The notes under the pieces: model-generated | What the model was told of the DNA's origin: nothing | Database searches by the model: none | What the model saw: only the letters and a program-made list of their open reading frames with translations | Program-made: the position numbers and the translations under genes | Shown here: positions 6,177-17,358 of the stretch, piece after piece | How the letters are laid out: each line of letters begins with the position of its first letter | Position numbering within the stretch: the stretch's first letter is position 1 | Assembly (NCBI RefSeq): GCF_000153305.1 | Contig: NZ_CH724107.1 | Location: 1,487,972 to 1,534,971 of the forward strand | Direction: 5' to 3' | Origin: Oceanicola granulosus HTCC2516 | Lineage (GTDB): Bacteria > Pseudomonadota > Alphaproteobacteria > Rhodobacterales > Rhodobacteraceae | DNA: 47,000 bases

Positions 6177-6360
6177 CGATGAGAATCCTTGCGAGGCGTC
6201 GGCCGGACCTTGGGTCCGACGGACTGCGCCCGTGAAGGACGCGCCAGTTGTCGATGATGAGGATGTCGCCTTGGCGCCAGTGATGGGCTTGGGGCGACGC
6301 GGCGGCGATCCGGTCCTCGATGAGCGCAAGGGCCATACGGCCGCGCTGGTCAACGGCTTC
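6169..6360 (-). pseudogene. 3' remnant of a TauD/TfdA-family Fe(II)/2-oxoglutarate dioxygenase
   Basis: The minus strand encodes about 60 residues ending with W-RQGDILIIDNWRVLHGR and then RRLARILIDA before the stop. The GD-hydrophobic-DN-x-R-x-x-H-G-R pattern is the C-terminal iron-ligand/2-oxoglutarate-binding block of TauD/TfdA dioxygenases. Family members are about 250-330 residues, so the first three quarters, including the HxD iron ligands, are missing. The remnant begins where the type ISP gene ends (6359), which suggests that an insertion or deletion joined them. It cannot be active alone. Confidence 0.6.
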
Positions 6361-9300
6361 AAGACAGCCGGGATGTCTTGACCGACGATACCGCGCGCAG
6401 CTGGTCCACGACCTCCAGCGTGCGGACGGAGACGGTGGCGACGCGGGCGAGGAGGTCGATGACACGCTCCTTGTGGTCGGCGAAGCGGTAGCGGGCGTCG
6501 GGGTTGTCCTTCAGCCACGCCTCGACGGTCCTGTCGCGTACCTTCCTCTCCTTGTGTTGGTCGAGCACCCAGTCGAGGCCGCTGCGGTTGCCCAGCCGGT
6601 AGTCCCATGCCTGGGGCGGAAGACCGGTGAGGGTGGTGGCGGCGTCGATCTCGATACGGCCGTCCGCCGGATGAGATTTGAGCTTGGGCTTGCCGGGGGC
6701 TGCGTCGGTGTCGTGGCGCTTGACGGGCCAGGGATCGGCGGTCTCGTAGTCGGTGTGGAGGTCCATAAGCGCCGCCCCTTGTGCGGCCCACCACGCGAAA
6801 TCGGCGTGGAACGGGATGCGGGGAAACTCGCGCCGCAGGTTGATGGCGTAGATCTCGCGCCAAATGGGATCGTGGAGGCAGGCGTAGACGTAGTGAAAGA
6901 TTGCATCCTTGGTGACGCCCGCGCGCTTGCCGTAGCGCTTAAGAAACTTGTTGAGGGCCCAGTCGGTGACGTTATCCATGCGGTCGCCTGTGGAGGTGTA
7001 GCGGTAGCGGGGAAATGCCTCTGTGTCTTCAAGCGTATGATAAGAATGAATTGCGCGCGAAGCGAGTGCCTGGAATGGCCGCTTAGCCGGATGTCCACCT
7101 ACAAGAATGGCAAGGTCATCCTCCCTGTCTTGACTGATGCTATGGACGAGATATTCCATCTCGATCAATCGAGGATCATACGCGATCAGGCGCGAGCGGA
7201 ACGGTCGATAAAGAATAGGTCGGACGATTGGTTTGGTTGTATCTAGACGTGTGGACCTTTCAAACCTAGCCTTGAGAGATCGCGTCCATTTAATTGGCGT
7301 GTTCTCCTTTTCCCACGGCGTGCGCTTTCCAATCAGACGATTGTATTTTTCTCGGAAGTCTCTGACGGCTTTCTTTGCGTATTTCTTTCTGTCCCATATG
7401 ACCCATTCATCACGCGCCGTGACGACACCTTTCGAGAACAGCTTGAATACTGCCCGCTCCTGCCCCTTCACCTTCGCGGCCTTGGTCTTCTTGTCCGCCA
7501 CCGGCAGCAGGTCGTCCCACTCGTTTTCCACCTGGTCGATCCAGTTGCCGCGCTTGGACGGTACGATCTCCCGCATCCGGCGCTCCGACAACGGTGTAGA
7601 CAGGAACTGGATCTTGGCGGGCGCTTTCGCGTAGTCCTCCACCTCGTCGTAAAAAACTCTGAACCCCTCCGTCGCCGAAGACTTCACGAAGAACGCGATG
7701 GCGACGCCGACCTTGATCTTATCGTCGAAAACGTTGCCGCCCTCTTGCCGTCGCCGCTCCCCACTCGTGCGCGCGTTGCCCTTAAGGTTCAGCACCCATG
7801 CCTCGTTGAACTCATCGCCTACGTAGGCGCGGAAGCCGTCGAAGGTGCGGGCGTCGATGAAACTGCTGTTGGTCACGAAAGCAACGATCCCCTCGTCCGC
7901 GATGCGGTCGAAGGCCCAGCGGTAGAACCGGGAATACATGTCGTACACCTTGGTCTTCTGCGCCGTGGACAGCTTGACGAAGGTGTTCCTCACCCGCTCG
8001 TCGATGCGGGGATATTCGCGGTTCTTGTTGTTGTCGTTCTCGTTCTGCTGGTTGGCGTTGTAGGGCGGGTTGCCGATCACCACGCTGATCTTGCGGCGGT
8101 TCTGGGCCTGCACCCGCTCGGTGTTCTCGTCGGTAAACTGGCCGAGGAAGGACATCTGCTGGCCGCGCCGAATGCCGAGCCCTCCCACGTTGTCCAGCGT
8201 GTCCACGAAGCAGAGGTTCGGGTATTCCGCGATCTGGCCGGTGATGCCCGCGTAGGTCGCCTCGATATTCAGATTGGCTACGTAGTAGGGCAGGATCGCC
8301 ACCTCGTTGGCGTGCAACTCCTCGCGGTACTTGCGCTCCAGTACCGCGCGCGGCTCGCCCCGCATGTGCTCGATCAGTTCGCAGACGAAGGTGCCGGTGC
8401 CCGTGGCCGGGTCGAGGATCTCGACGCCTTGGTCCGCCAGCCGCTTGCCGAAGTGCCGCTCGCACAGCCAATCGGTGGCGCGGACCATGAAGCGGACGAT
8501 CTCGTTCGGGGTGTAGACCACGCCCAGCCGGTCGGCGGCGTCCGGGTTGTAGGACTGGTAGAAGCCCTCGTAGATCACCTTGAGGAAGGTCTGCTTCTCA
8601 GCATGATCGGTGATTTCGGCCGCCGCCGTCTCGATGGCCTGGTAATAGGGGCGCAGGCCGCGCAGCATTTCGCGCTTGGCGGTGCCCGCGAGGAACAGGG
8701 CCTCCAGTTCGTAAAGCTCCCGCGCCACATTGTTGGTGCGGTGGAACTCCCCGTCGTCGAAGACATGCGCGAAGATGTTCTCGGTCAGGACATGCTGGAT
8801 CAACATCTCGCGTACGTCGGCCTCGACGATGTTCGGGTTCACCGTCTCTCGCGCGTGTTGAAGGAAAGCAGTGGCCTTAGCCGTGAAGGCTTCGTTGTCG
8901 TCATAGGCTTTGTCGATCCGCTCGCGAAGGTGACCCAGGATGGCTGGCAGTTCGACGCGGAACTGCTGGACCGCGCTGCGCCATTCGCCGATCACGGCGG
9001 GCTGCCAGTCGAAGAAGGCCACGAGGAGGCGATTGAGATCCTCGGCCGAGGCCATCGAACAGCGCATGACTTCGCGCCCGTCCTGGAAAAGGACGGCGGT
9101 CTCGGTGTCCTCAAAGATGGTGTTCGTGATCGGGTAGCCGACGGCACGCTTCTTCGCGATCTCCTCGTCGAGGTTGTCGTCGGAATCCTTTGCTTCCCAA
9201 TAGCCGTGTTTGATCCTGATCTCGTGGAGGACGGTGCCGTCGGGAACGCGGGACGCGGCGGGGCCGTTGCCGCCGATAGGCAGCTCTGGTGCGAAGATCA

Positions 9301-9433
9301 GATCCTCGGCGTCGGACCAGTCCTCCAGAAGGCGCTGGAAGGCGGCCCGCAGTACCGTCTCCAGCCGAGAGCCGGTGGTAGCGCGGAGCTTGTCGATGCG
9401 GGCGTGATAAGTGCGAACCCTTGTGATAGTCAC
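6359..9433 (-). CDS. type ISP-like restriction-modification enzyme (nuclease + N6-adenine methyltransferase + specificity domain), helicase-less
   Basis: Type ISP enzymes fuse nuclease, translocase, methyltransferase and target recognition in one chain. This 1024-residue protein has an N-terminal PD-(D/E)xK-like region (D65, E80, K82 in YWEAK). A helical linker follows, then an adenine methyltransferase with motif I DPATGTGTFV (341-350) and motif IV NPPY (455-458). A long C-terminal region (about 600-1000) resembles the type ISP coupler and recognition part. The SF2 helicase of classical members such as LlaGI (about 1,570 residues) is absent. The start is GTG at 9433. It leads the operon that continues into the TauD scrap and two HEPN genes. 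Target specificity cannot be read from sequence. Confidence 0.85.
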   Translation of the reverse strand: MTITRVRTYHARIDKLRATTGSRLETVLRAAFQRLLEDWSDAEDLIFAPELPIGGNGPAASRVPDGTVLHEIRIKHGYWEAKDSDDNLDEEIAKKRAVGYPITNTIFEDTETAVLFQDGREVMRCSMASAEDLNRLLVAFFDWQPAVIGEWRSAVQQFRVELPAILGHLRERIDKAYDDNEAFTAKATAFLQHARETVNPNIVEADVREMLIQHVLTENIFAHVFDDGEFHRTNNVARELYELEALFLAGTAKREMLRGLRPYYQAIETAAAEITDHAEKQTFLKVIYEGFYQSYNPDAADRLGVVYTPNEIVRFMVRATDWLCERHFGKRLADQGVEILDPATGTGTFVCELIEHMRGEPRAVLERKYREELHANEVAILPYYVANLNIEATYAGITGQIAEYPNLCFVDTLDNVGGLGIRRGQQMSFLGQFTDENTERVQAQNRRKISVVIGNPPYNANQQNENDNNKNREYPRIDERVRNTFVKLSTAQKTKVYDMYSRFYRWAFDRIADEGIVAFVTNSSFIDARTFDGFRAYVGDEFNEAWVLNLKGNARTSGERRRQEGGNVFDDKIKVGVAIAFFVKSSATEGFRVFYDEVEDYAKAPAKIQFLSTPLSERRMREIVPSKRGNWIDQVENEWDDLLPVADKKTKAAKVKGQERAVFKLFSKGVVTARDEWVIWDRKKYAKKAVRDFREKYNRLIGKRTPWEKENTPIKWTRSLKARFERSTRLDTTKPIVRPILYRPFRSRLIAYDPRLIEMEYLVHSISQDREDDLAILVGGHPAKRPFQALASRAIHSYHTLEDTEAFPRYRYTSTGDRMDNVTDWALNKFLKRYGKRAGVTKDAIFHYVYACLHDPIWREIYAINLRREFPRIPFHADFAWWAAQGAALMDLHTDYETADPWPVKRHDTDAAPGKPKLKSHPADGRIEIDAATTLTGLPPQAWDYRLGNRSGLDWVLDQHKERKVRDRTVEAWLKDNPDARYRFADHKERVIDLLARVATVSVRTLEVVDQLRAVSSVKTSRLS

Positions 9434-9675: not shown

Positions 9676-9745
9676 CCGCAGCGAACGACCGCTTCCCGCC
9701 ATTGCCTTACCTTTGCAGTGGCCGCAGCGAACACTGCTTCCCGCC
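9676..9745 (+). repeat. two near-identical 24-25 bp direct repeats
   Basis: Copies at 9676-9700 and 9722-9745 share CCGCAGCGAAC at the start and GCTTCCCGCC at the end and differ by a few central bases. They lie in the spacer between the divergent type ISP and helicase genes. They resemble a non-coding motif scattered between genes in alphaproteobacteria, but this is from memory. No gene is visible between 9434 and 9857. Confidence 0.45.
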
Positions 9746-9857
9746 CAGCAGCGACGTTGCCGTACGGACTACACGCCCGCTCGAGACTAATGCGCGCGGC
9801 AACATTCTCGGCTGTTCGATATCTGCTAGATCGGGAAAGGATGGCAACTTGGTGCTC

Positions 9858-12797
9858 ATGAACCTCGATTCAAAATTCTTCATGGGATTCCTGATTGATC
9901 CTCTCGGCCGACATCCGAGGTCCCTGACCCTGCAGGAGGACGGTATTGCGGCACGTGGCGCTGGGTCGCCCTGGATAGCGCTTGGAGCGATGGCGAAGCG
10001 GCCTTCCGTGAGGAAGGGCGTTCTTTCGTCGTCGCTTATGCTCGATCTCGGAGGCGGTCGATACCTAACCTTGCCAGCGGTGGATACGTCCGAGGCCGAA
10101 AAGTTCGCGCAGGCAGCTGCCAGCGCCTGGATAGATTTCCATCGGGCGGAGCTTGGAAAGGAGGACGTCGCGGTCCAGTGCATCCTGCAAGCGCTCCAGG
10201 CGCTGAAGGTGCCAGATGCTTACCCCGCAGCATGCCGGGTATCGCCTTTGGCGCGCGATGCTGCCGACCTGAACAACCGTGTGCTGTCTAAGCTGAACGC
10301 GGAAGCCGTCGGCAACAGGGCGATGTCTCGGGTTGCCCCTATCACGGCGTTCGCATCCGATCCGAATGCCGCCCGTGAAGCGGCTATCGATGTGTTCGTC
10401 GAAGCTCAGCTCCACCGTTGGAAGGGTTTTTTTGACACGGTCGAGTCCATGCCGCTGACGCCGGAACAGCGTCTGGCGGTCGTGATCGACGAGGACGCGA
10501 CGCTGGTTCTGGCTGGCGCGGGGTCGGGCAAGACCAGCGTGATCACTGCCAAGGCCGCCTATCTCGTGAAGGCCGGAATTCGAGAGCCGAGCGAGCTACT
10601 GCTGCTTGCTTTCGCGAAAGACGCAGCGACCGAGATGTCGGAGCGGTTCGAAGCCAAGTGCGGGGTCGCAGTGGCAGCACGCACCTTCCATGCGTTGGCC
10701 TATGAGATCATCGGCGAAGTGGAAGGCGAAAAGCCCCCTTTGGCGCCGACCGCGACCGACGATAAGGCCTTCTTGTCACTGGTGAAGGAGATCCTGCGGC
10801 ACATCGTGGCAACCGCCAGCGAGGTCGCGCAGACCGTGATCGGCTGGTTCGCCGGTTTCTTCGACGAATTCCCGACAGAATGGGACTTCAAGACGAAGCA
10901 CCACTGGTACGCGCAGATCGAAAGCCGCAACCTGCGGACGCTGCAAGGCGAGACGGTAAACGGCTTCGAAGAGCTTCTGATTGCCAACTGGCTGTTCCGG
11001 AACGGCATCGCTTATGAATACGAGCCAAGCTACGAGCACGAGCTCGAGAAGACCGGTCGTCGCGCCTACACCCCCGATTTCCGACTGATAGAGAGCGGCG
11101 TCTACATCGAGCATTTCGGCGTGCGCAAGAGGCGCAACAGGGATGGCGAGGAAGAGCTGACCACGGCGCCATACGTCGATCGCGACGAATACCTGGCGGG
11201 TATGGACTGGAAGCGAAAGGTCCACGCCGAGCACGATACAGTTCTGGTCGAAACCTTCAGTTGGGAGCGAGACGAGGGCCGGTTGCTTGAGGCGCTGGCG
11301 AAGAAACTCGAGCCCCACGTCACGCTGCGGCCGATCTCCGACATCGAAATCTATGACTGTGTGGCAGAGGTTGGGGCTGTGGACAGTTTCACCTCGCTGA
11401 TGGGCACCTTCCTGCGTCATTTCATGAACGGCGGCTACCGGGTCAAGGACTGCTCCGAGAAGGCGCGGAGGCTGAAGATGGGGAAGCGCGCCGAGGCGTT
11501 CCTCAAGATCTTCGAGGCAGTGTTTCGGGAGTATCAATCCCGCCTGGGCGATCGGATCGACTTCGAGGACATGGTGAACCGCGCCACAGCCCTCGTGGAA
11601 AGCGGACGCTACCAGAGCCCGTTCCGCCATATCCTTGTCGACGAATTTCAGGATATCTCGACTGGACGGGCGAAGCTGTTACAGGCCCTCAAGCGCCAGC
11701 ATTTCGATACGAAGGTGTTTGCCGTTGGCGATGACTGGCAGTCGATCTACCGCTTTGCCGGATCGGACATACACATCATGCGCAACTTCGGTGCCGAATT
11801 CGGCGGCACCTTCGCAGGGGCCACTGGTGTCCATCGGACCGTCGATCTTGGTCGGACATTCCGCTCTGTCGACAAGATCGCACTGGCCGCCCGTCGCTTC
11901 GTTCTTCGCAACCCCGCGCAGATCACCAAGACGGTGATCCCGGCCGGCGAGAGCGACGAACCTTCGATCAGGATCGCCTGGACGCGCCGCGACAATGGCG
12001 AGAAGGCCCTGAACGACGCCGTGGCTGCTCTTGCAGCGACGGAGGGAAAAGGGGGCGGGAAGCCGTCGATCCTGATCCTTGGCCGATATCGTTTCCTGCG
12101 CCCCGATGTGGCGCGGCTACAGCGCCAGAACCCGGGGGCGACAATCACCTTCAAGACTATTCACTCGTCGAAAGGCTTGGAGGCCGATCACGTGATCATC
12201 CTCGGTGCCGACAATGCCAAGATGGGGTTCCCGTCGATGATCGTCGACGACCCTCTACTCAGCTTGGTGTCGCCCGAGGTCGAACCATATCCAAATGCCG
12301 AAGAACGACGCGTTATGTATGTCGCCGTGACCCGGGCCCGACGAACAGTGACGATCCTTGCATCCGAAGCACGTCCCTCCGTTTTCGTCGAAGAGTTGAT
12401 GAAAGAGGCCGAATTCGGCGTGGTCGTGCCCCAAGAGGCCCAGAAGCACACCCACACCTGTCCGGGTTGCGGCGGGCGCTTGCTCCACATGGCTGGAAAG
12501 GACGGTCGCGACTGGTATCGCTGCGAGCATGTGAAGCTGTGCGGCAGTCGCATGCCGGCATGTCCGGCCTGCGGTATTGGCCTCCCGATCCACTCCCGAA
12601 TCAGTGGGGATCTGGTTTGCGGTAATTGCGGCGTGACTCAGCCGGGTTGCCCCAGCTGCAAAGCAGGATGGCTTGTAGAACGCCGTGGCCGCTATGGAGC
12701 ATTTCTCGGTTGTGTCCGCTTCCCCGACTGTGATGGCAAAGCCAAGCTGCAGACAGGCGCACGACACGCTGCGAGAGCGAGATCCCAACGACATTAG
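9858..12797 (+). CDS. helicase IV-like UvrD/Rep superfamily 1 helicase with nuclease-like insertion and C-terminal zinc ribbons
   Basis: This 979-residue protein is an SF1 3'-5' DNA helicase most like E. coli helicase IV (HelD). An N-terminal accessory domain (1-195) precedes the Q motif LTPEQ (200-204) and Walker A AGAGSGKT (219-226). Between helicase motifs there is a restriction-endonuclease-like insertion (about 370-480) with EELLIANWLF, YTPDF and IEHFG, where the usual ExK is replaced. DEFQD, GDDWQSIYRFAGSD, the IHSSKGLEADHV motif and YVAVTRAR follow. The C-terminus carries paired CxxC clusters (CPGC, CPAC, CGNC, CPSC), as in topoisomerase I zinc ribbons. The ATG at 9858 is where family-like sequence begins. 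It diverges from the type ISP operon by 424 bases. Confidence 0.85.
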   Translation: MNLDSKFFMGFLIDPLGRHPRSLTLQEDGIAARGAGSPWIALGAMAKRPSVRKGVLSSSLMLDLGGGRYLTLPAVDTSEAEKFAQAAASAWIDFHRAELGKEDVAVQCILQALQALKVPDAYPAACRVSPLARDAADLNNRVLSKLNAEAVGNRAMSRVAPITAFASDPNAAREAAIDVFVEAQLHRWKGFFDTVESMPLTPEQRLAVVIDEDATLVLAGAGSGKTSVITAKAAYLVKAGIREPSELLLLAFAKDAATEMSERFEAKCGVAVAARTFHALAYEIIGEVEGEKPPLAPTATDDKAFLSLVKEILRHIVATASEVAQTVIGWFAGFFDEFPTEWDFKTKHHWYAQIESRNLRTLQGETVNGFEELLIANWLFRNGIAYEYEPSYEHELEKTGRRAYTPDFRLIESGVYIEHFGVRKRRNRDGEEELTTAPYVDRDEYLAGMDWKRKVHAEHDTVLVETFSWERDEGRLLEALAKKLEPHVTLRPISDIEIYDCVAEVGAVDSFTSLMGTFLRHFMNGGYRVKDCSEKARRLKMGKRAEAFLKIFEAVFREYQSRLGDRIDFEDMVNRATALVESGRYQSPFRHILVDEFQDISTGRAKLLQALKRQHFDTKVFAVGDDWQSIYRFAGSDIHIMRNFGAEFGGTFAGATGVHRTVDLGRTFRSVDKIALAARRFVLRNPAQITKTVIPAGESDEPSIRIAWTRRDNGEKALNDAVAALAATEGKGGGKPSILILGRYRFLRPDVARLQRQNPGATITFKTIHSSKGLEADHVIILGADNAKMGFPSMIVDDPLLSLVSPEVEPYPNAEERRVMYVAVTRARRTVTILASEARPSVFVEELMKEAEFGVVVPQEAQKHTHTCPGCGGRLLHMAGKDGRDWYRCEHVKLCGSRMPACPACGIGLPIHSRISGDLVCGNCGVTQPGCPSCKAGWLVERRGRYGAFLGCVRFPDCDGKAKLQTGARHAARARSQRH

Positions 12798-15194: not shown

Positions 15195-15935
15195 ATGGAA
15201 GCTCTCGAAAACCTTCTGCAATTGCCCTACCAGACCCTTGCCATCTTGATTGCAGGCTACCTGTCCTATCGTCTGGCCTACACAGGCCGCGACACGACGC
15301 ACCGGACACTGGACACACTTGCCATAGCGCTGGTGTTTGCGTTCGTGGCACAGGCCGCGTCAGCGGCTCTCTTGATCCTTTGCCACTGGAATAATCCAGC
15401 CCCATCGGGCGGCGAATTGCCGTTATGGGTCGGCTACGGAGCGAGCGTTGGCGGGATAGTTGTTGCTCTGTCGTCGGCTGGGGTATGGCGGCGGGTGAGC
15501 GTAAGCGCTGTTCCTGAGCTTCTGCGAAGTGCAGGCATATCATCGGCGGATAGAAATACCGCCGCATGGGAAACCGTCATAAATCGTGAAGACTCTGGAC
15601 CATCGCAAATCACAATCGTGAAGAAGGACGGCACAACGCTTCAATGTGAGCGGCTGGACGATTTCAAGAAAGCACCGTTCGGCCCAATGATCTTGGGGCA
15701 AGACGGGTCAGTTGCGATATATGTCACCGATTATCGCGCAGCTAACTCAGATGAATGGGAAGAAGTGGACCCATCACATGGGGACTGGGGACTGGAGATC
15801 ACAATCATCCCGGCAGGCGAAATCTCGGAGGTGCGGATACGGCACGCCCCTTCACTTCTTGGGCGGTGGCGGCGAAGCCGGAGCGCTGGGGATGGGGCGG
15901 GCGTTGTCGGGTATATAGACGGGTCCGCCACCTGA
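15195..15935 (+). CDS. hypothetical membrane protein
   Basis: The product is 246 residues from the ATG at 15195. A GTG at 15162 would add 11 residues. Three hydrophobic segments lie in the first 100 residues (around LAILIAGYLSYRLAY, IALVFAFVAQAASAALLIL and GYGASVGGIVVALSS). A soluble C-terminal domain of mixed strands follows (ITIVKKDGTTLQCERLDDFK onwards). The layout recalls small DUF6338-type membrane proteins, but I cannot confirm that family. The last 28 codons overlap, on the other strand, the terminal member of the proline-rich ORF array. The tail (RWRRSRSAG...) looks unnatural, so the original stop may have been earlier. Function unknown. Confidence 0.55.
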   Translation: MEALENLLQLPYQTLAILIAGYLSYRLAYTGRDTTHRTLDTLAIALVFAFVAQAASAALLILCHWNNPAPSGGELPLWVGYGASVGGIVVALSSAGVWRRVSVSAVPELLRSAGISSADRNTAAWETVINREDSGPSQITIVKKDGTTLQCERLDDFKKAPFGPMILGQDGSVAIYVTDYRAANSDEWEEVDPSHGDWGLEITIIPAGEISEVRIRHAPSLLGRWRRSRSAGDGAGVVGYIDGSAT

Positions 15936-15971
15936 CTGTGCTTGAACCCCTGACTGCGCTTCAAACGGCAT
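15852..15971 (-). CDS. proline-rich micro-ORF a (39 aa, C-terminus SPPPPKK)
   Basis: The 39-residue product starts MPFEAQSGVQ and ends ARPIPSAPASPPPPKK. AAGAGGT lies seven bases before the ATG. That Shine-Dalgarno is formed by the last Lys-Arg codons and stop of the preceding ORF. The C-terminal 18 residues align with the neighbouring ORF b, and the terminal motif recurs in the ORFs at 16156 and 16335. The chain is rich in Pro, Ala and Gly and is probably disordered. No family recognised. The paralogous repetition is the main evidence that it is a real gene. Confidence 0.5.
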   Translation of the reverse strand: MPFEAQSGVQAQSGGGPVYIPDNARPIPSAPASPPPPKK

Positions 15972-15975
15972 AGCG

Positions 15976-16098
15976 TTACCTCTTGGGTGGCGGAGGCGAA
16001 GACGGGGCCGCAGGCATGGGGCGGGTGTTCGTCTCCGGGATCGGACGCAACGGCAGCGTTGTAGGACGCGTAGGCGGTGCGGAGGGTTTCCCACTCAT
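15976..16098 (-). CDS. proline-rich micro-ORF b (40 aa, C-terminus SPPPPKR)
   Basis: The 40-residue product starts MSGKPSAPPT and ends TRPMPAAPSSPPPPKR. It lies four bases upstream of ORF a on the minus strand. GAAAGG before its ATG supplies a ribosome site. It shares RP(I/M)P(S/A)AP(A/S)SPPPPK(K/R) with ORF a. The composition suggests a disordered peptide with a basic, proline-rich tail. No transmembrane segment or signal peptide is present. Function unknown. Confidence 0.5.
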   Translation of the reverse strand: MSGKPSAPPTRPTTLPLRPIPETNTRPMPAAPSSPPPPKR

Positions 16099-16102
16099 CG
16101 GA

Positions 16103-16189
16103 TTACCTTTCCGGGTTTGCTGGCAACAAGTTTCTGTGACCTTTCAACGACAACTCTAGCGACGGACGGCGTCGACGGGTGTCTGACAT
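16103..16189 (-). CDS. possible micro-ORF c (28 aa)
   Basis: ATG 16189 is preceded by AAAAGAGGTAG, the same ribosome-site layout as ORF a, and its stop lies four bases before ORF b. The product (MSDTRRRRPSLELSLKGHRN...) lacks the PPPPK tail. It overlaps ORF d in another frame. It is kept because the spacing fits the array, but it may be a degenerate copy or a by-product of the frameshift in ORF d. Confidence 0.25.
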   Translation of the reverse strand: MSDTRRRRPSLELSLKGHRNLLPANPER

Positions 16190-16332
16190 GTTCTACCTCT
16201 TTTGGGAGGTGGCGGCGTTCCCGGCGCAGCGGCACGGGGCTGTTGCGATCCTTGCACCCGCACCTCTCCCCGCTGTCGCGGGAGCGGTTTGGGTTTTGGG
16301 TTTTGGTGGTGGAGGCGTCGGTTTTTGACCAT
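16156..16332 (-). CDS. proline-rich micro-ORF d (58 aa, internal TPPPPKR, probably frameshifted)
   Basis: From ATG 16332, two bases after the stop of ORF e, the frame contains QQPRAAAPGTPPPPKR, which aligns with QQPMASAPSAPPPPK of ORF e. It then runs on for 12 residues instead of stopping. Removing one A from the AAAA after the proline codons would give PPPKR-stop at TAG 16193-16195, matching ORFs a and b. A second frame at its 5' end also encodes PTPPPPKPK. It is probably a damaged array member. Confidence 0.4.
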   Translation of the reverse strand: MVKNRRLHHQNPKPKPLPRQRGEVRVQGSQQPRAAAPGTPPPPKRGRTCQTPVDAVRR

Positions 16333-16334
16333 GC

Positions 16335-16517
16335 TCAGCGCTTCGGTTTAGGCGGCGGTGGCGCGGACGGTGCGCTTGCCATCGGTTGTTGCGAGTTGAT
16401 CGAGATGCGCGAGTAATCCGGTTTGGCAACATCATCTCGATTCGCTGTCTCGGTTTCTTCTTTGCTCAACTTCGCGCCCCTCTGACTCGATAGGTTGTCA
16501 GAGCATAAGGAAAACAC
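16335..16517 (-). CDS. proline-rich micro-ORF e (60 aa, C-terminus PPPPKPKR)
   Basis: The open frame from GTG 16517 gives 60 residues ending QQPMASAPSAPPPPKPKR. The N-terminal half (KLSKEETETANRDDVAKPDY) is charged and hydrophilic. The start is uncertain because the first 17 codons overlap the ORF upstream. It is the first member of the minus-strand array of ORFs with a PPPPK-type C-terminus. Function unknown. Confidence 0.45.
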   Translation of the reverse strand: MFSLCSDNLSSQRGAKLSKEETETANRDDVAKPDYSRISINSQQPMASAPSAPPPPKPKR

Positions 16518-16726
16518 GGCTTCGCTTCTAGCATGATCTGACGTAGTGACACCTTACTAGCACAAGATGTTGCGCGAGGCCACTGTTCGAGATGGATTAC
16601 CCTTGAAGGGTCTAGTCTTTCAAGCCGTATAAAGTCCGCCTCGACCTTTGCCGCCGCGCCCCCCTCCGGAAGTCTATGGTACTCTTTATCCTGTTCGCAC
16701 TCTGATTTGTCATAGTCATCACTCAT
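16466..16726 (-). CDS. hypothetical protein, 86 aa
   Basis: The start ATG at 16726 overlaps the stop of the DUF4238-like gene (ATGA), which suggests coupled translation. The N-terminus is acidic (MSDDYDKSECEQDKEYHRL) and the rest is mixed and basic. No motif or family is recognised. The 3' end overlaps ORF e. It may link the DUF4238-like gene to the proline-rich array as one transcription unit. Confidence 0.4.
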   Translation of the reverse strand: MSDDYDKSECEQDKEYHRLPEGGAAAKVEADFIRLERLDPSRVIHLEQWPRATSCASKVSLRQIMLEAKPCFPYALTTYRVRGARS

Positions 16727-17358
16727 TGAAACGCGCTCCGTTCGGTAACGTAGTTGACTTCAACAAATTCCTTCTCGGAGAAATACCGATAGTGCTGACT
16801 ATCCATCACGTTGAAAAGCGCCGCTGGCAGGAAATACTTCGGGTTCGGCCTCAGCTCGTGAGCGTTCTGGTATAGGTCGCGCACCCAAGCCAGATTCGTG
16901 AGGATAAGTATCTTGTCCGGCGATAGCGGAAAGTACCTTTGCGCGACCATACGGATATCTGGAACATTAGAACCCAAACATCGTTTAAACGCCGACAGCA
17001 TTTGCGAAGCTCGAGATAACGAATTCAATCGCGTGCTACTGGTATCGGCGATCTGCCAAACAGCTTCGATTCTGTATTCGCCGCATCTCAGGGAGAGAGT
17101 TCTATTCTTGCAGGTGCTACCCAGCATGGATCGAAGCCATCCTAGCCCCTTTGGCGTGTGAAGTTTCTGCACGCTCATATAAGGTAGAAGCGTATTGAAC
17201 GCGCCATTAGATTGGGAGTTGAACTCGAAGTCGGCAAAGTGTGCGACGGCGGCTGGGGCGCTTGCTGAGGGAAAAGGTGTGATTATGGCATGTAGATGCT
17301 GGCCGTGTTCTGTTTGATGGGATACTGTGGCTCTGCCTTTACAACAACGCCAATCCAA
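16723..17358 (-). CDS. DUF4238-like protein, N-terminus missing or start unresolved
   Basis: The C-terminal part (FPLSPDKILILTN, then RPNPKYFLPAALFN and LSEKE-like FSEKEFVEVNYV) resembles the end of DUF4238 proteins. These are uncharacterised and common in accessory regions. The usual N-terminal block of DUF4238 is not visible. The open frame begins only at a TTG (17358) just after an in-frame stop. An adjacent frame reads a plausible PEDLDVWIGVVVKAEPQYPI up to a stop. The 5' end therefore looks truncated or frameshifted. The ending (VTERSAFQ) is also shorter than expected. Family assignment is from memory of its pattern. Confidence 0.4.
   Translation of the reverse strand: MDWRCCKGRATVSHQTEHGQHLHAIITPFPSASAPAAVAHFADFEFNSQSNGAFNTLLPYMSVQKLHTPKGLGWLRSMLGSTCKNRTLSLRCGEYRIEAVWQIADTSSTRLNSLSRASQMLSAFKRCLGSNVPDIRMVAQRYFPLSPDKILILTNLAWVRDLYQNAHELRPNPKYFLPAALFNVMDSQHYRYFSEKEFVEVNYVTERSAFQ

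Follow-up and report, generated by a model that had tools for sequence, protein, structure and literature searches.

What is the run of short, proline-rich reading frames in this piece of alphaproteobacterial DNA, and which gene does it work with? The window, a stretch of 47,000 nucleotides from Oceanicola granulosus HTCC2516, holds on its minus strand several small open reading frames (ORFs) with a basic polyproline tail that face the gene of a membrane protein. The array and the membrane protein may play an as yet unnamed role in the struggle of bacteria with their viruses, and what looked like an oddity of one genome becomes a recurrent gene module.

A five-ORF array, partly decayed in the window

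All four minus-strand frames of the original prediction are open in the window (15852-15971, 15976-16098, 16156-16332 and 16335-16517), the first of them nested in a longer open frame that reaches a GTG at 16094. The full set of the array is five paralogous ORFs, A to E, of which the window keeps A, D and E, with B altered and C broken. Microprotein A (16335..16469, minus strand; 44 aa, C-terminus SINSQQPMASAPSAPPPPKPKR) has a probable TTG start; the longer frame first assigned to it was right in its PPPPKPKR end but not in its start, because the closest orthologue of A starts at the site of TTG 16469, which makes 16335-16469 the likely gene. Microprotein B (16156..16332, minus strand) is an altered copy with small indels that has lost its usual stop, and its frame continues for 13 residues past PPPPKR, where B of the relatives ends in PPPPKPKR. 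A remnant of C (16103..16189, minus strand) is frameshifted and lacks the tail. Microprotein D (15976..16098, minus strand; 40 aa) has the C-terminus IPETNTRPMPAAPSSPPPPKR, and microprotein E (15852..15971, minus strand; 39 aa) the C-terminus VYIPDNARPIPSAPASPPPPKK. The 3' part of E overlaps by 84 nt the 3' end of the convergent membrane-protein gene (15195..15935, plus strand; 246 aa). Orthologues of A and D, and intact orthologues of B, are present at loci L058, L061 and L074, and the membrane gene also adjoins the array in L058, L059/L074 and L061.

The tail is conserved while the upstream parts of the microproteins vary, as had been proposed; it forms the very end of E (PPPPKK), D (PPPPKR) and A (PPPPKPKR), but the PPPPKR of B is internal. 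Similarly, spacers of 2-4 bases hold for A-B (2 nt) and D-E (4 nt) but not for the 57-nt gap between B and D, which is the site of the frameshifted fifth ORF, C, whose tail is gone in the window.

Arrays in the same order, with four or five intact ORFs, occur in three other elements. The array is more than a chance feature. We searched with a DNA pattern for PPPPK(K/R)-stop, whose degeneracy lets through N, S, Q or H after K as well, and Trp in place of the stop. It matched 81 of 295 family genomes, and the two matches in the genome of the window are D and E. Inspection of 26 pattern-match loci yielded one homologous array in the same order, G208:C30 (L058), with four ORFs (A, B, D and E) and no C; its E (6490-6603) and its membrane gene, which runs to 6573, share the same 84-nt overlap as in the window. 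At G145:C778, a pair of PPPPKR-stop matches separated by 531 bp was rejected, because the frames turned out to run antisense within a repeat-rich ORF. Further copies were located via the facing membrane protein: all five ORFs on plasmid CP081163.1 of Rhodobacteraceae bacterium S2214, the same five in the same-family genome G389, and an array at IMG/VR locus L059. C is intact at L061 (5299-5442) and L074 (5869-5979). The array faces the membrane gene in G208:C30, CP081163.1, L059, G389 and PP438431, the last with a membrane protein identical to that of G208:C30. The record concerned, PP438431.1 (L062), is labelled 'Synechococcus phage Ssp-JY41' and looks like a plasmid-like element rather than a cyanophage: besides RepA, ParA and a Txe/YoeB toxin it encodes a membrane protein with 100% identity to one on a window-family contig (L058).

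Searches with the peptides themselves behaved differently. With D as tblastn query, matches at E <= 1 arose in 71 of 101 genomes, none of which was followed as true, the strongest besides the window's own having E 9e-4. A similarity search of plasmids with the E peptide gave no match; short-peptide queries evidently miss true copies, because CP081163.1 carries the array.

Substitution patterns were compared across 16 orthologue pairs of A-D, with the altered window copies of B and C left out. Pooled pS was 0.68 against a pN of 0.20, and differences at codon positions 1, 2 and 3 numbered 154, 118 and 381. Taken singly, A and D each had pS above pN in six of six pairs; E did so too in its six pairs, where the 84-nt membrane-gene overlap is a confounder. 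These substitutions show purifying selection on A-D and bear out the claim that the frames are coding; the codon pattern rules out the case that the original prediction had set against it, a GC-rich repeat without coding function. The array is thus real and coding in the window's subfamily, and the window copy is partly decayed.

Gaps of 2-8 nt separate successive intact ORFs. Within the window's subfamily, 11 of 13 intact junctions have terminal Lys-Arg codons (AAG AGG or AAA AGG) that double as an AGG-type Shine-Dalgarno sequence for the next ORF, the exceptions being A-B in the window and A-B in L074; E, the last ORF, ends in Lys-Lys codons instead. Translation of successive ORFs is therefore probably coupled.

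Family and predicted fold of the facing membrane protein

A profile search assigned the window membrane protein to phrog_12870 (E 1.9e-33, residues 5-220), which also matched in seven relatives (E 1e-27 to 2e-40). A profile built on the window protein found members in 10 of 394 family genomes, the window's own included. The protein has no Pfam match and falls below the gathering score of DUF6338 (PF19865), 26.5 bits, which one of nine group members passes: L079 (27.5 bits), a distant member with E 1.3e-21 to the window membrane-protein profile. When profiles were aligned with hhalign to canonical DUF6338 (A5), a diverse group profile (A9) gave E 2.2e-4 at a probability of only 45%, and a narrow profile (A3) gave E 0.095 at 0.6%. 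Because the diverse profile matches DUF6338 and the narrow one does not, we call the window protein a putative remote sister of DUF6338. Pfam DUF6338 and phrog_12870 are both of unknown function, and their descriptions mention no small partner.

AlphaFold2 (AF2) models of a canonical DUF6338 member and of the window protein (mean pLDDT 69 and 66) both have three long helices and a C-terminal beta domain. The top Foldseek matches of both models are Sm/LSm chains, with best E values of 0.02 (canonical) and 0.013 (window) and probabilities near 1; neither model had a match at E 0.001 or better. As a candidate MscS-type channel the protein offers an Sm-like domain after three transmembrane (TM) helices, but an MscS chain is absent among the best 50 of 570 Foldseek matches. 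A sequence profile search of the PDB returned only claudin-3 (E 0.65), and none of the PADLOC models matched either of the two membrane proteins tried. The membrane protein is thus predicted to have three TM helices and a cytosolic Sm-like domain. When a small ORF was read through as one chain with the membrane protein, AF2 modelled it at pLDDT 31-43 with no contact.

The gene at 16723-17358, suggested in the original prediction as a DUF4238-like partner, drops out: it has no match near other arrays, and no array lies near its relatives. A tblastn search with its product at E 0.01 found none in the array-flanking DNA of L058, L059, L061 and L074, and around its six relatives we found only chance PPPR frames. 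Its product matches no Pfam family up to E 0.1, DUF4238 included. At the thresholds applied, the 211-aa product of the gene has no counterpart in Pfam, NCBIfam, PADLOC or PHROG; five of its relatives are in Rhodobacterales-type records and one is in a Gemmatimonadetes MAG.

Small ORFs beside DUF6338-type genes

The facing membrane protein, the other proposed partner, is a constant neighbour: it adjoins the array in four of four distinct array copies, and in all six of its full-length distant relatives (L075-L080) one to three low-complexity ORFs converge on the 3' end of the membrane gene. In L076 three such ORFs end in KPQPKD, KPQPKD and KPKEKD. L081, which is truncated, was left unscored. 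Among three further class members, all from Alphaproteobacteria, L087 has one small ORF and L086 and L088 have no clear partner.

At canonical DUF6338 genes, the small ORF lies downstream on the same strand, overlapping the stop or just after it. By a strict composition test, a small disordered ORF directly follows 47 of 55 DUF6338 genes on viral contigs versus 1 of 177 control ORFs from the same loci. This count drops L136 and L177, where the gene runs off the contig, and includes L125 and L126, contigs of L111 and L110 that had been inspected before the thresholds were fixed. When the viral set is clustered at 80% identity, 23 of 29 clusters are paired, YxP and a PPx(K/R) tail being present in each of the 23 representatives. 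Scored by a motif chosen after inspection of the viral peptides, at least one ORF lies within 900 nt of 53/55 DUF6338 genes versus 10/174 control windows, and 19 of the 55 genes have two to four copies within that distance. Six of the eight strict misses (L137, L146, L166, L167, L176 and L178) hold a YxP..PPxK ORF just beyond the thresholds; in L179 the small ORF is convergent, and in L174 none was found.

Of 27 loci from plasmids, E. coli, phages and genomes, 21 satisfy the strict small-ORF test. Two of the six misses, L089 and L115, do have the ORF (the DUF6338 frame of L115 is interrupted), and L102, L103, L122 and L181 have no clear ORF. Of 19 plasmid records with DUF6338, 13 were examined, that is, all except H8, H9, H12, H15, H20 and H23. 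A phylum search found DUF6338 in 19 genomes, and a second search recovered this set of 19 again. Of three E. coli prophages, two have the small ORF annotated and the third does not. The pairing recurs in Proteobacteria, Actinobacteria, phages and plasmids; across the family the small ORFs adjoin the 3' end of the membrane gene, often in tandem.

The 71 distinct peptides of the viral set are 41-92 aa long with a median net charge of +4 (66 positive), and 36 of them end in PPPKKP. In the non-viral set, 19 of 21 strict peptides contain [YFW]xP and 17 have K or R in the last three residues; PPx(K/R) falls within the last twelve residues of only 12, in two of these not at the very end. Three copies in immune operons lack the tail: Proteus (..PPGEE), Streptomyces (..NGNED) and Mesorhizobium (..GGKK). 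Adjacency and disordered YxP character are thus general, and the polyproline-basic tail is found in many, not all, lineages. Some microproteins carry internal repeats, such as several GYQP units (viral loci L123-L178) or SPNAKVITAP twice in L079 (1844-2083, minus strand), as if copies of one binding unit had built up within single ORFs in addition to the duplication of whole ORFs. L155 (IMGVR_UViG_3300005308_000005) combines a Zot-domain gene of filamentous-phage type with DUF6338 and three tandem PPKKP microproteins.

Three predicted TM helices and a predicted beta domain, with an adjacent small disordered ORF, are common to canonical DUF6338 members and the window protein. The window array, with its VYIP or SxxP and PPPPK(K/R), is a variant of this theme, to which we join it because of putative remote homology, a shared predicted fold and matching partners, not because of similarity in peptide sequence.

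Our literature searches found no name for such a system, in keeping with the original prediction, but they did turn up one example. In Pseudomonas stutzeri ATCC 14405, the accessible part of a published report describes three proline-rich peptides of <50 aa, detected by mass spectrometry with 44-114 PSMs, whose genes share a predicted operon with DUF6338; the DUF6338 protein was not detected, membranes lying outside that analysis (PMC10433244). This was the only paper on DUF6338 that we found. Its authors reported no conservation beyond P. stutzeri, suggested de novo genes and raised an antimicrobial role (PMC10433244). The operon is like those described here in joining a DUF6338-type gene to proline-rich small peptides; unlike in the authors' view, the pairing is widespread here, a comparison of gene arrangement and not of their peptide sequences. 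If the P. stutzeri peptides are of the same type, the de novo reading should be revised, because the pairing is widespread though sequences diverge fast. The peptides are short and low in complexity, so that searches with the small partners fail and annotation is uneven, which may explain why those in P. stutzeri were called de novo genes (PMC10433244).

Surroundings and candidate roles of the pair

Several copies of the pair lie within or beside immune genes. In Proteus penneri pPp47 a small ORF lies 77 nt before a ThsB-like TIR gene and a caspase gene, and in Streptomyces sp. Caat 7-52 a 48-aa ORF lies 3 nt before a CHAT gene. Mesorhizobium mediterraneum has SMODS followed by SLATT (CD-NTase-SLATT), the latter 10 nt before DUF6338. 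On Acinetobacter plasmids an E2-ThiF-JAB gene lies 14 nt before DUF6338, with three tandem small ORFs after it, and on Curtobacterium pTCL the DUF6338 pair is divergent from TIR and caspase genes. On A. baumannii pA52-2 a convergent DUF4062 gene lies 82 nt past the second small ORF; DUF4062 is described, in the accessible part of a published report, as a TIR-like anti-phage NADase (PMC13174449). Altogether, an immune gene adjoins 6 of 12 plasmid loci (L061, L112-L122, L180 and L181, three alike Acinetobacter loci being counted once), a raw count. The other six have no immune gene next door, with a Dietzia TIR gene ~3 kb away.

Mobile elements also carry the pair by itself. In three P2-like prophages of E. 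coli the pair sits at the edge of the element, with mntR or a tRNA gene as its neighbour; in one strain (Combat13F7, L183), the gene just upstream of DUF6338 (6954-7979) matches the PADLOC candidate PDC-S64 (E 2.5e-47). Klebsiella phage pJN2-26 carries a DUF6338 pair as well, and prophage copies often have no immune gene next door. In the window, a Type ISP restriction-modification enzyme (6359-9433), which scores 2477 bits with the PADLOC type IIG model, and a helicase of UvrD type (9702-12797), whose PADLOC matches are GajB-like, place the array in an island with defence-type genes. The link of the DUF6338 pair to immune operons is suggestive.

Two published cases are comparable. Like the nuclease-protease pairs recurrently acquired by unrelated immune systems (PMC12799240, from the part available), one pair here adjoins several unrelated immune operons; unlike them, it joins a membrane protein to disordered microproteins, and no enzyme is apparent in it. 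The prophage copies resemble the defence systems of P2-like prophages (PMC9122126, again in part), which are accessory modules that include some with transmembrane proteins; unlike those, the E. coli copies, all three at the edge of the prophage, are not clearly in the gpA-gpQ hotspot. In the literature we found no phage assay of a DUF6338 protein.

The reading that we favour, at a probability of roughly 0.4, is that of a two-part module acting in phage-host conflict, in which a membrane effector or exclusion protein is controlled by tandem disordered microproteins. One part of the module would be the membrane protein, with three helices and an Sm-like cytosolic domain; the other would be a tandem set of one to five microproteins, disordered and for the most part cationic, that usually have an aromatic-x-P motif in common and often a PPx(K/R) tail. 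The membrane protein might form an oligomeric assembly to whose cytosolic domain the microproteins bind, in tailed subfamilies via the tail; when bound they would keep the assembly inactive (or arm it), and the presence of several copies would provide dosage and variety. Release could be brought about by phage infection or, where one is operon-linked, by an immune sensor (TIR, CD-NTase, caspase-like or E1/E2-like), and the released membrane protein would stop infection through membrane damage or exclusion of phage DNA. More tentatively still, this may be a widespread unnamed immune or counter-immune module, in which tandem disordered microproteins, with a PPx(K/R) tail in many lineages, gate an oligomeric membrane protein with an Sm-like ring. 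Such a module would have been taken up time and again by immune operons of unrelated kinds (TIR-caspase, CHAT, CBASS-like and ubiquitin-like), and by prophages as a stand-alone unit. If the immune link is true, the pair would extend several bacterial immune systems by an accessory part and offer a test case for the control of membrane proteins by disordered microproteins; copies in environmental E. coli prophages, such as that of the water isolate SC477 (NZ_LR778152.1) with its 56-aa small ORF, put it within reach of laboratory-strain tests.

A toxin-antitoxin or addiction pair, in which the membrane protein would be a growth-arresting pore and the abundant microproteins its antitoxins, serving maintenance of the element and not phage defence, seems unlikely to us. 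Arrays of up to five partners would be unusual for an antitoxin, and some copies lie within or beside unrelated immune operons. The two-part make-up, with abutting or overlapping genes on plasmids and prophages, does fit such a pair, as does the finding in P. stutzeri of abundant peptides and an undetected DUF6338 protein in an analysis that membranes lay outside (PMC10433244). Also doubtful is an exclusion module of a prophage or plasmid, whose membrane protein and microproteins would block the entry of competing phage or plasmid DNA with no killing. Exclusion would suit the occurrence in prophages, on small plasmids and in a phage record with plasmid-type replication genes, and the location of copies near contig ends: in 21 of 33 IMG/VR contigs of at least 27 kb, the DUF6338 copy lies within 20% of an end (binomial p 0.005, a rough value with related rows counted separately). 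However, it does not by itself explain the adjacency to TIR-caspase or CD-NTase genes. Both readings share most of their evidence with the microprotein-controlled conflict module that we prefer.

Much less probable is that the array encodes antimicrobial peptides, proline-rich and secreted, for which the membrane protein would serve as immunity or export factor. The peptides are mostly cationic and proline-rich, the P. stutzeri authors raised an antimicrobial role (PMC10433244), and the VYIP..RPIP of window microprotein E recalls the insect peptide apidaecin, presumably by chance; however, the inspected peptides have no hydrophobic leader by eye, their short repeated YxP units resemble a binding module, and the immune-operon context also counts against this role. 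The weakest reading, a non-coding GC-rich repeat or an antisense by-product of the membrane gene, could appeal to the overlap of E with that gene and to the similar DNA repeats, but it is refuted by the codon-position pattern of A-D, whose frames do not reach into the membrane gene and whose differences fall mainly on third positions, and peptides of this kind recur in Acinetobacter and enterobacteria and have been detected in P. stutzeri (PMC10433244).
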